In this document: piece by piece, positions 23,968 through 47,465 of the stretch
Layout of the letters: every line of letters begins with the position of its first letter
How positions within the stretch are numbered: the stretch's first letter is position 1
Origin: an uncultured Lachnospiraceae bacterium
GTDB taxonomy: Bacteria; Bacillota; Clostridia; Lachnospirales; Lachnospiraceae
Reading direction: 5' to 3'
Length of the DNA: 54,372 nucleotides
NCBI GenBank assembly: GCA_947623185.1
Contig: CANQGL010000008.1
Span: forward strand, 1 to 54,372
Notes under the pieces: model-generated
The model's database searches: none
Told to the model about the DNA's origin: nothing
The model's input: the letters and a program-made list of their open reading frames with translations, nothing else
Position numbers and translations under genes: made by a program

Positions 23968-24000
23968 TCACACGAAAGTCACACGAAAGTCACACGATTT
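23968..24000. repeat. Three 11-bp direct repeats at the integrase 3' end
   Basis: TCACACGAAAG at 23968 and 23979, and TCACACGATTT at 23990, in exact 11-bp phase (one helical turn). The third contains the integrase stop codon. Clusters of short direct repeats next to int are typical arm-type integrase binding sites; that role is inferred. Confidence 0.6.
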
Positions 24001-25015
24001 CAAGCTCGGAGAAGTGCTCATTTATTTTTCTGTTTTGCTTTTCCTTCTCAATATCAATTACATTACGATATACTGTTTTCATTACATGATCGTTTGTCCA
24101 ACCTCCCCGCTGTAAAATATATTGGTCCGGCACTCCGATGGCATGCATCATTGAGGCTGAGTAATGCCGCAAATCGTGAAACCTGAACTTGTTAATATTT
24201 ATCCTGTTAATAGTATGCTCAAATCTGCTTGTTAAAGTTTCGGGCGTCATTTGTACGATTCTTCCCTTAATGCCACTTATTTTTTCTATAACAATATCAG
24301 GCATTTTGATTTCACGGTAGCTCCCATATGTTTTTGGGTTCGGTTTGATTACATATTTTCCGTTTTCATCTTTAACCATGCTTTTCCGTACAACGATTGT
24401 GTCACCTATTATATCCTCATCAGTTAGTGCGCAAATTTCTCCACGCCGTAACGGTCCGAATGCGGCCAACATCACAGCGATCTCCAATTCGGTCCCCTGA
24501 ACGCAATCAAGCAACTTCTTAATATCTTCGTCAGACGGGCAGTAAAAATCGGATTTTATATTTGCCGGTAGCGTGACCTTAATGCGAAAATCCGGCGCGA
24601 ACATATCCAGAGCGGAAGATAGCAGCCAAAAAGCGTTACGCACTGTTTTAGGGCTTAAATTTGCCGACAGCTCGCTTACCCATATCTGTATTGCGCGATT
24701 GGTCAAGTCGGAGAGTTTTGTTCCCCCGAACGGACCGGAGAAGCGGATGCGCAGCATGTCCTTGTATGTCTTTATGGAAGAAGGCGACAAGACGTTCTGC
24801 TTTGCGGCAATATATTTTTCTATCGCCTCATATACAGTAATATTTTCCGGGATCCTCTGCGTTTTGTTTACCTTCCATTCATTCGCCCTGATCTGCGCTT
24901 CACGTTTGCTTGCGCCGGTAAAACTGCGGTAATGCCGTTTCCCTTCCGAATCCGTATAATCATAAACCTGTATACGGTAATTTCCGGACGGGAGTTGATT
25001 CTTCTTTTTTGCCAT
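23990..25015 (-). CDS. int: Phage tyrosine integrase
   Basis: Site-specific recombinase of 341 aa that inserts and excises the phage. Residues 1-45 form an arm-type DNA-binding domain (GNYRIQVYDYTDSEGKRHYRSFTGASKREA), 58-145 the core-binding domain, then the catalytic domain with R190 in GPLRRGE, K228 in NPKTYGS, H280-x-x-R283-H284, W306 and nucleophile Y316. All six catalytic residues are present, so it should be active. AAAGGATGATG precedes the start. It reads toward the host junction, as usual at a prophage left end. Confidence 0.96.
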   Translation of the reverse strand: MAKKKNQLPSGNYRIQVYDYTDSEGKRHYRSFTGASKREAQIRANEWKVNKTQRIPENITVYEAIEKYIAAKQNVLSPSSIKTYKDMLRIRFSGPFGGTKLSDLTNRAIQIWVSELSANLSPKTVRNAFWLLSSALDMFAPDFRIKVTLPANIKSDFYCPSDEDIKKLLDCVQGTELEIAVMLAAFGPLRRGEICALTDEDIIGDTIVVRKSMVKDENGKYVIKPNPKTYGSYREIKMPDIVIEKISGIKGRIVQMTPETLTSRFEHTINRININKFRFHDLRHYSASMMHAIGVPDQYILQRGGWTNDHVMKTVYRNVIDIEKEKQNRKINEHFSELEIV

Positions 25016-39678: not shown

Positions 39679-40134
39679 ATTAACAAAGTGGTTTTGATGG
39701 GCAGGTTGGTCCGTGACCCGGATACAAAATATACTACCGGAGATAATTCCTTTGCGGTAACGCGCTTTACATTGGCGGTCGATCGCCGAGGTGCAAAGAA
39801 AGGGCAAGGAGATCAGGCAACAGCAGATTTCATTAACTGCATCGCTTTTGGAAAGTCGGGCGAATTCGCCGAAAAATATTTCCGACAAGGAATGCGAGTC
39901 CTGGTTTCCGGGCGGATCCAGACTGGAAGCTATACGAACAAAGACGGTAAAAAGGTCTATACCACAGACGTAATCGTTGAAGAGCAGGAATTTGCCGATA
40001 GCAAGAACCAGAGCGCCGGTGGAAACAGCGGAAGCTATCAGCAGGTTTCCAGACCGGCTCCGTCCAATTCCGGCGACGAAGGATTTATTCATATTCCCGA
40101 AGGCGTCGAAGATGAAGGACTTCCATTCAATTAA
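39679..40134 (+). CDS. ssb: Single-stranded DNA-binding protein (probable ATT start)
   Basis: OB-fold SSB: NKVVLMGRLVRDPDTKYT, NSFAVTRFTLAVDRR, ADFINCIAFGKSGEFAEKYF, GMRVLVSGRIQTGSYT, then a flexible Ser/Gly/Gln linker and the acidic tip EGLPFN that docks partner proteins. The frame's first standard start is GTG 39688, 17 bp after the ribosome site and three residues into the first strand. An ATT at 39679, eight bp after AGGAGG, restores the family N-terminus (M)NKVVLMGR. Needed for phage replication with the downstream organizer. Confidence 0.92.
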   Translation: MNKVVLMGRLVRDPDTKYTTGDNSFAVTRFTLAVDRRGAKKGQGDQATADFINCIAFGKSGEFAEKYFRQGMRVLVSGRIQTGSYTNKDGKKVYTTDVIVEEQEFADSKNQSAGGNSGSYQQVSRPAPSNSGDEGFIHIPEGVEDEGLPFN

Positions 40135-40155: not shown

Positions 40156-41109
40156 ATGGCTGGCAGACCAGGAAAAGCAGGACTTGACTACTTTGAATTG
40201 GATTGCCACGTGGATGAAAAGGTAGAGCTGATCGAAGCCGAATTTGGATTGAAAGGGTTTGCAATAGTTATCAAACTGTTTCAGTACATTTACTCAAGTT
40301 TTGGATACTATTGTAATTGGAACCCGGAAATATCAGTATTGTGGGCGTACCGTTTAGGGTGTACTCATGGTGTTGGACAAGGAAATGTTGATAAGAAGTA
40401 TGACGAATGTGCCTTATCCGGATTTCCGAAAAATTTGATTAATGAGGTTGTAGCGGCTTCGATCAGAAGGGGTATTTTTTCGGGAGATCTTTTCGATAAG
40501 TATCATATTCTGACATCATCAGGGATTCAGAAACGGTACATAAACGCCGTATCCAGACGTGAAAAGATAGACCTGATTAAAGAGTACCTTTTAATTGATG
40601 TGAGCAATAATTCAATTAATGTATGCATTAATTCAATTTGTGTTGACGGAAATTCAATTAATGCGTGCAGAAATTCACAGAGTAAAGAAAAGGAGATAAA
40701 AGAAAAAGAGAGTAAAGAAAATAAAAGTAAAGAAAAGGAAACTAAAGAAAAGGAGCTTATTAGAACAGATTCTATCGAATCTGTTTGTCAGACTGACGTC
40801 CGACGAGTGCTGGATGCGTGGAATGAATTACAAGCCTACGGTATTATCCCGATTGTCAGGGTCAAGGGTGAATCCGAAAGGATCAAAATGCTTAAGGCAC
40901 GGATTCGGCAATATGGAGTGGACAAGGTTTTGGAAGCTGTAGAGAAAATCAAAGTGAGTGATTATCTTCAGGGGAAGAACAGGCACAATTGGTCGATAAA
41001 GTTTGACTGGTTTGTCAGACCAAATAATTTTCCCAAAGTCCTGGAAGGAAACTACGACAACGGCACGCATGAGAAGAGAACTGTCTTTGACGAATGGAGG
41101 AGTGCTTGA
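40156..41109 (+). CDS. Replisome organizer / replication initiator (DUF4373, DnaD-like)
   Basis: The N-terminal DUF4373 domain reads GLDYFELDCHVDEKVELIEAEFGLKGFAIVIKLFQYIYSSFGYY. A Lys/Glu/Ser-rich linker of about 40 residues follows, then a DnaD/replication-type C-terminal region VLDAWNELQAYGIIPIVRV and DWFVRPNNFPKVLEGNYDN. Such proteins melt the phage origin and recruit the host helicase. Between the two domains the DNA carries four 21-bp iterons (40,609-40,680), a probable origin placed inside its own initiator gene. AACGGAGATAATAAA precedes the ATG. Confidence 0.87.
   Translation: MAGRPGKAGLDYFELDCHVDEKVELIEAEFGLKGFAIVIKLFQYIYSSFGYYCNWNPEISVLWAYRLGCTHGVGQGNVDKKYDECALSGFPKNLINEVVAASIRRGIFSGDLFDKYHILTSSGIQKRYINAVSRREKIDLIKEYLLIDVSNNSINVCINSICVDGNSINACRNSQSKEKEIKEKESKENKSKEKETKEKELIRTDSIESVCQTDVRRVLDAWNELQAYGIIPIVRVKGESERIKMLKARIRQYGVDKVLEAVEKIKVSDYLQGKNRHNWSIKFDWFVRPNNFPKVLEGNYDNGTHEKRTVFDEWRSA
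40609..40680. repeat. 21-bp iterons, candidate phage replication origin
   Basis: AATTCAATTAATG at 40609 and 40651, AATTCAATTTGTG at 40630, and a partial AATTCACAG at 40672. All four start exactly 21 bp apart (two helical turns), so bound protein would face the same side. They encode a 7-residue repeat (NSIN-type) in the organizer linker. Placement inside the initiator gene is the rule for many Firmicute phages. Confidence 0.72.
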
Positions 41110-41756
41110 TGACAAGGGATGAATCCAAAAAGTTGCTCATGGTCATTCAGGCGGCCTATCCAAATTTTAAACCGGAAAATAAAAGCGTCACTGTTGATAC
41201 ATGGTGGATCATGCTGTCCGATTATACATACGGGCAGGTAGAATCAGCGATCAAAGCATTTATACGAACCGATACCAAAGGATACGCTCCATCCATCGGC
41301 CAGATTATCGAAAAACTGCAATTGTTGTTCGGGGATACAGAAATCAATGAAATGGCCGCATGGGGAATGGTCCTAAAGGCAATACGAAATTCCAGTTATC
41401 ATGCCGAGGAAGAGTTTGCAAAACTGCCGCCAGTCATCCAAAGGACCATAGGTGACCCAAACCAGTTAAGAGAATGGGCGCTCACGAATGATCCCGATGG
41501 AAAAGCATTGAATGTGATACAGTCTCATTTTTCCAGGGCATATAGGCAAGAGGCCATGAGAGCAAAAGAACTAAGCAAAATGGATCCCAAGCTTTTGCAG
41601 CTTGTGCAAGGAGCAGCAGAATTATTGACGTATCAGCCAAAAAAGGAGATTCCAGAGAAAACGAGCATGGAGGAATGGCAGCCATTGTCCGAACAGGCAC
41701 AAGAGAAAATCAAAAGAGTAAAAGAGAAATTAGGAGGGGGACAAGGTGGAGGATAA
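41109..41756 (+). CDS. Helicase-loader-like phage replication protein (G39P-type)
   Basis: TRDESKKLLMVIQAAYPNFKPENKSVTVDTWWIMLSDYTYGQVESAIKAFIRTDTKGYAPSIGQIIEKL matches the N-terminal domain of phage helicase loaders/inhibitors related to SPP1 G39P. The C-terminal half is helical and unassigned. ATG in a TGATG overlap with the organizer, with GGAGGAG upstream. Length 215 aa. Probably loads the host or a phage helicase at the origin. Confidence 0.75.
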   Translation: MTRDESKKLLMVIQAAYPNFKPENKSVTVDTWWIMLSDYTYGQVESAIKAFIRTDTKGYAPSIGQIIEKLQLLFGDTEINEMAAWGMVLKAIRNSSYHAEEEFAKLPPVIQRTIGDPNQLREWALTNDPDGKALNVIQSHFSRAYRQEAMRAKELSKMDPKLLQLVQGAAELLTYQPKKEIPEKTSMEEWQPLSEQAQEKIKRVKEKLGGGQGGG

Positions 41757-47154: not shown

Positions 47155-47465
47155 ACGCAGTACATGATGATGTGGTGAAACTGGTTGACAAGGAGTTGGA
47201 ATCGGCGAACAAGAAGTTTCCGATGTTCCGGTCGGCTCATGAGGGTTGTGCGGTTATTCTGGAAGAATTGGAAGAGGCACGTGATGAAATGGTGAACACA
47301 GAATTATTTTACAATCATTTGTGGAAAACCGTCAAAGAAAACAGTGACTTTGGGAGCCTTTTGGATGCGATTCAAGTGAAGGCAGAGTCACTCGCCTGCG
47401 AAGCAATCCAAGTGGCGGCTATGGCGAAGAAGTTTCAAGAGAGCATGGAGAAATTCAATGGGTAA
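47151..47465 (+). CDS. Helical phage protein, 104 aa
   Basis: FRSAHEGCAVILEELEEARDEM followed by ACEAIQVAAMAKKFQESM, an all-helical EExxE-rich protein that weakly recalls MazG-type pyrophosphatases but lacks a convincing active site. AGGAGGCAAGG before the ATG. Function unknown. Confidence 0.72.

Follow-up and report, generated by a model that had tools for sequence, protein, structure and literature searches.

Phage lambda and some plasmids provide established examples of replication origins that lie within the gene of their own initiator. In lambda, four iterons followed by an AT-rich tract are located in the middle of the O gene, and the iterons are bound by the initiator (PMC7466680). In phage SPP1, oriL is found inside gene 38 and combines direct repeats with an AT-rich unwinding element, followed by a loader of the gene 39 type (PMC6316719). 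Similarly, the organizers of Tuc2009 (rep2009) and TP901-1 (ORF13) bind direct repeats in their own genes (PMC8965321). In plasmid pSK41, the N-terminal domain of Rep binds four boxes inside rep, the origin encodes the central linker of the protein, and the N- and C-terminal domains resemble DnaD (PMC5703833). Synonymous changes in the AT region of oriL of P1 repL, inside the initiator gene, inhibit replication (PMC9948254). No study of the function of the Lin1244_N family (PF14297) was found in the open-access literature. Here, we describe a segment at positions 40576–40755 that very probably adds a further case to this type of origin, in the linker of a Lin1244_N protein gene. Judged from sequence comparison, it is very probable that this segment is the replication origin of a prophage, placed within its own initiator gene, since the relatives of this gene preserve both the linker repeats and the adjacent purine tract as DNA.

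The window, by which we mean the whole stretch of 54,372 nucleotides that was analysed, lies on a contig of an uncultured Lachnospiraceae bacterium. The region surrounding the segment belongs to a prophage, in which integrase, repressor and RecT-like genes are present. The genes for the single-strand DNA-binding protein, the initiator and a G39P-like loader follow one another in this order, with the loader gene overlapping the end of the initiator gene (Table 1). The initiator matches the Lin1244_N profile with an E-value of 3.6e-21 (76.1 bits, against a curated cut-off of 25) and phrog_2562, a replication initiation protein, with 4.8e-52, while its residues 173–304 match phrog_10469, a DnaD-like helicase loader, with 4.1e-31. 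The Lin1244_N domain is presumably the DNA-binding part of the protein. Its predicted structure is of low confidence (pLDDT 60, single model), and a search of solved structures with the profile of this domain returned no matches. The C-terminus is 48% identical to that of another organizer (L036), the N-terminus of which belongs to PF09681 (Phage_rep_org_N). This match despite a different N-terminus points to an exchange of domains at the linker. No DnaB-type helicase was matched on the contig of the window, and the DnaB_C matches of the genome sit on contigs C30 and C10.

Two further features were observed in the prophage. A perfect 11-bp repeat, TCACACGAAAG, is present in 2.7 copies at 23968–23997, where the integrase gene (23990–25015, minus strand) ends, and is a candidate attachment-side or excision element. 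On the phage side, the gene at 47458–48540 matches phosphoadenosine phosphosulfate reductase families.

Table 1. Features of the putative origin segment and of the genes around it (positions refer to the window)
Feature	Position	Strand	Basis
ssb, single-strand DNA-binding protein gene	39688–40134	+	PF00436, 2.6e-26
Replication initiator (replisome organizer) gene, 317 aa	40156–41109	+	ORF; PF14297, phrog_2562 and phrog_10469 matches
N-terminal Lin1244_N domain, presumed iteron-binding	40156–40596	+	Pfam residues 12–124; relatives align through residue 147
Entry motif ATTAAAGAGTACCTTTTAATT, upstream of the iterons	40576–40596	+	Constrained at synonymous sites, codon columns -8 to -1
Iteron 1, GATGTGAGCAATAATTCAATT	40597–40617	+	21-bp register common with relatives
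Iteron 2, AATGTATGCATTAATTCAATT, best match to the family core AATGTNNNCA	40618–40638	+	21-bp register common with relatives
Iteron 3, TGTGTTGACGGAAATTCAATT	40639–40659	+	21-bp register common with relatives
Iteron 4, AATGCGTGCAGAAATTCACAG	40660–40680	+	21-bp register common with relatives
Purine tract, 5-bp units AGTAA/AGAAA/AGGAG, encodes SKEKEIKEKESKENKSKEKETKEKE	40681–40755	+	Self-match, family lag 5, low stability
C-terminal DnaD-like domain	40771–41064	+	phrog_10469; elsewhere joined to other N-terminal domains
G39P-like helicase loader gene	41094–41756	+	PF11417, 1.2e-10; phrog_2289 helicase loader, 1.2e-12

On the forward strand, AATTCA is found at 40609, 40630, 40651 and 40672, where a sequence-only reading of this DNA had located it, with a spacing of exactly 21 bp. 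None of 2,000 Markov-1 simulations of the gene produced a 6-mer four times in arithmetic progression. Only one other such 6-mer array was detected in the whole 54-kb window, with a 17-bp spacing near 542. At that place, about 7.4 copies of a 17-bp unit, GTCTGTGCGAAGAAATG, with a 90% match, extend over 538–662, just upstream of an ORF at 693 and outside the phage replication module. The repeats in the initiator gene had been called exact 21-bp iterons, but exactness holds for the spacing only, since just 6–9 bases are identical per unit. AATTCAATT is common to three copies, the fourth has AATTCACAG, the remainder of the unit is variable, and the TRF match among units is 72–84%. The array was thus correctly recognized, but its register had been set too late: the relatives place the units at 40597–40680 around the core AATGTNNNCA. 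The window's copies of this core are degenerate, with TGTG in unit 3 and AATGC in unit 4. The encoded peptide, NSINVCI NSICVDG NSINACR NSQ, matches the NSIN-like heptapeptide described in that reading, and the A/T-rich Lys/Glu linker described after the repeats is indeed present.

We collected 92 non-redundant relatives of the initiator from viral contigs, bacterial genomes and phage records. Their C-terminal halves are widely variable, and in the linker beside the Lin1244_N domain a period of seven residues is retained while the residues themselves change, with heptads such as NVDINSV, NSISGGR, NSDETRV and NVDISSK and with N conserved at heptad position 1. The 21-bp spacing persists in the relatives despite the divergence of the peptide. 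As a null, synonymous codons of the 32-codon linker were shuffled according to the usage of each gene. DNA identity at lag 21 in the linker amounted to 3206 against 2809±25 under this null (z=16, 92 genes), and no comparable rise was seen in the same genes at lags 12, 15, 18, 24 and 27 (z from -3.1 to 1.5). For the window gene alone, the value at lag 21 was 43 against 32.1±3.0 under the null (p about 1e-4). The best lag was 21 in 48 of the 53 close relatives and in 65 of all 92, so that in close relatives the spacing is kept where the linker is retained, the opposite of the loss that had been set beforehand as speaking against an origin.

Within one gene, tandem slippage could render the copies similar and raise their identity, which it could not do for conservation across genes; each codon was therefore also compared with its counterpart in the other genes. 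Expressed as synonymous identity in excess of codon usage, the between-gene values were 0.13 for the domain (its last 28 codons), 0.48 for the entry motif (eight codons, directly before the iterons), 0.42 for the iterons, 0.76 for the purine tract and 0.01 beyond it. Synonymous conservation in the segment differed from that in the domain with p=7e-8 (Mann–Whitney). This profile indicates that the constraint begins and ends with the segment.

The purine tract comprises 75 nt with a GC content of 25%, and its coding strand, 91% purine, reads AGTAA AGAAA AGGAG ATAAA and so on in the window. Its self-match at lags 5, 10, 15 and 20 exceeds the synonymous null (p 0.003–0.006 each), and its duplex stability places it within the 0.3% least stable 80-bp intervals of the phage part. 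The 5-bp DNA period, with AGTAA/AGGAA as pentamers, is family-wide: in 69 relatives picked by protein pattern only, z was 35 at lag 5, 28 at lag 10 and 21 at lag 15. Within the tract, Ser is encoded by AGT in 155 of 169 cases, against a background of 13%, and Val by GTA in 97 of 102, against 23%. Considering that a 5-bp period is no multiple of the codon, the SKVKES or KEKE peptide repeat appears as a by-product of the DNA. The proposal that the A/T-rich linker serves as the melting region thus finds support in the low duplex stability and in the strong DNA-level constraint on the tract, which is probably a DNA-unwinding or single-strand loading element.

An exact consensus 22-mer of the tract occurs in at least 120 stretches in viral contigs. 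Among the matches listed, there were 113 non-redundant stretches in which the longest ORF on the strand reads the tract in frame, as an S/K/V/E linker. By a Pfam scan, also among the matches listed, 89 of 97 carriers are Lin1244_N proteins, and the notion that the tract is spread over unrelated initiator families was dropped on this ground. As this set was chosen on DNA, it was left out of the codon tests. A blastn search of the phage collection with the tract as query gave no hits, which is probably an effect of the low-complexity filter.

In Bacillus subtilis, DnaD binds TnnT repeats (PMC10201434). By inspection, TNCT recurs every 5 nt on the template strand of the tract consensus, as it would in any AG-rich repeat, and the resemblance to this recognition element is a lead. 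We tentatively suggest that the 5-bp tract might be an undescribed origin element, namely a pentanucleotide single-strand docking site for the DnaD-like loader that is common to the Lin1244_N family, takes an altered form in Tuc2009 and r1t, and dictates the SKVKESK peptide linkers; we regard this as possible, though the odds are somewhat against it. On the basis of an open-access search, the pentamer tract across the family is the part that could be new, and older work on related phages may describe it.

In distant members of the family, repeats such as ACCGTTCAAC, GCAATGC and CATTACG stand 11 bp apart and occur in each of the three reading frames; 11 and 21 bp correspond to about one and two helical turns. 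In the initiator genes L195, L203, L207, L161, L178 and L179, which carry a purine tract of the Lin1244_N type, the iterons have a period of 11 or 22 bp and fall into two or three reading frames. As a control, 12 genes for unrelated organizers, of PF09681, were analysed, the linkers of which have periods at lags 4, 6, 8, 10, 12, 20 and 22, not 5 or 21, showing that the 5-bp unit is not universal. The PF09681 organizers L036, L038, L039, L041, L279 and L287 contain linker repeats of their own (e.g. GTTAACAGTAAA), together with purine tracts such as GAGATA repeats. The linkers of PF09681 are a parallel design with a different unit.

The repeats might instead be a feature of the protein, an Asn-rich heptad linker joined to a charged flexible one, selected as peptide or left behind by tandem duplication, with no function as DNA. 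Such a reading would accommodate the fact that a 21-bp period spans seven codons and stays in frame among close relatives, the conserved N at heptad position 1 and the general commonness of Lys/Glu linkers. It leaves unexplained why conservation at synonymous sites greatly exceeds what codon usage predicts, within genes as well as between them, why the strongest signal has a period that does not fit the codon, and why distant members read their iterons in three frames, and we consider it very improbable. Nearly as improbable is that the iterons are mainly an autoregulatory operator, through which the initiator represses its own or downstream transcription. Initiators of iteron replicons often bind repeats that also control expression. 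In this gene, however, about 440 bp of coding sequence precede the repeats, and an even more constrained purine tract follows them, which an operator does not need.

A further alternative concerns the tract alone, which could function at the RNA level, by serving as an internal ribosome-binding site or forming an R-loop, for instance, rather than in strand loading on DNA. The coding strand is rich in purines and in AGGAG/AGGAA words, and purine RNA on a pyrimidine template forms stable hybrids; an R-loop, moreover, would be compatible with origin function. A ribosome-binding site would not be expected to show a 5-bp periodicity across as many as 75 nt, and we regard an action in RNA as unlikely, if less so than the two preceding alternatives.

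The origin reading, by which a single piece of DNA serves as protein linker and as probable origin, was put forward in the sequence-only reading and is supported by the conservation of synonymous sites, by a spacing that is kept while the peptide diverges, and by the three-frame reading in distant members. As in gene-internal iteron origins, regular direct repeats within an initiator gene, selection on DNA and an adjacent tract of low stability are found together. The sign of the GC skew does not change at 40.6 kb, a result that is little informative here, since the surrounding genes run one way; no exact DnaA box was detected near the segment. For the working of such an origin, we infer three steps, namely initiator binding, opening of the tract and helicase loading. 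The Lin1244_N domain would bind the four 21-bp iterons, which, at a distance of two helical turns, share one face of the DNA; the bound iterons and the initiator would form an initiator–DNA complex. Through this complex, the 5-bp purine tract next to the iterons would be opened, and the DnaD-like half of the initiator, together with the G39P-like loader and SSB, would bring a DnaB-type helicase, probably that of the host, to the opened strand.

Proteins with a Lin1244_N domain are found repeatedly among the phages and prophages of gut Firmicutes. An origin whose place can be predicted in every one of their genes would offer a testable site and a route to replicons for poorly tractable gut bacteria. 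It would also explain the conserved charged repeat peptides of these proteins, with the DNA, not the peptide, being under selection. If the 5-bp tract is indeed a loading element, strand-specific helicase loading by DnaD-like phage proteins becomes directly testable.

Among the described systems, SPP1, which we compared by description only, shares with the window an organizer gene with internal repeats and a weak tract, and in the window, too, a gene of the G39P type (PF11417) lies directly downstream. Unlike in SPP1, which has the helicase G40P, no match to a DnaB-type helicase was obtained on the window's contig, and no second, oriR-like iteron cluster was found. P1 repL, likewise compared by description only, belongs to another initiator family (RepL). 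The record of Tuc2009 rep states that the origin is contained in the gene, and 5-bp periodic purine-rich tracts are present both in this gene (L277, 2097–2879) and in r1t orf11 (L278, 3396–4130); the proteins of Tuc2009, TP901-1 and r1t, however, have no Lin1244_N match, and the tract units are AGGAT and AGATA. In lambda O, as in the window, four iterons followed by an AT-rich tract lie inside the initiator gene, although the protein family is another and the window combines an in-frame 21-bp spacing with a tract of 5-bp purine repeats. The origin of pSK41 is that of a plasmid with an initiator of the RepA_N family, and it resembles the segment described here in that the origin DNA encodes the linker of the initiator.
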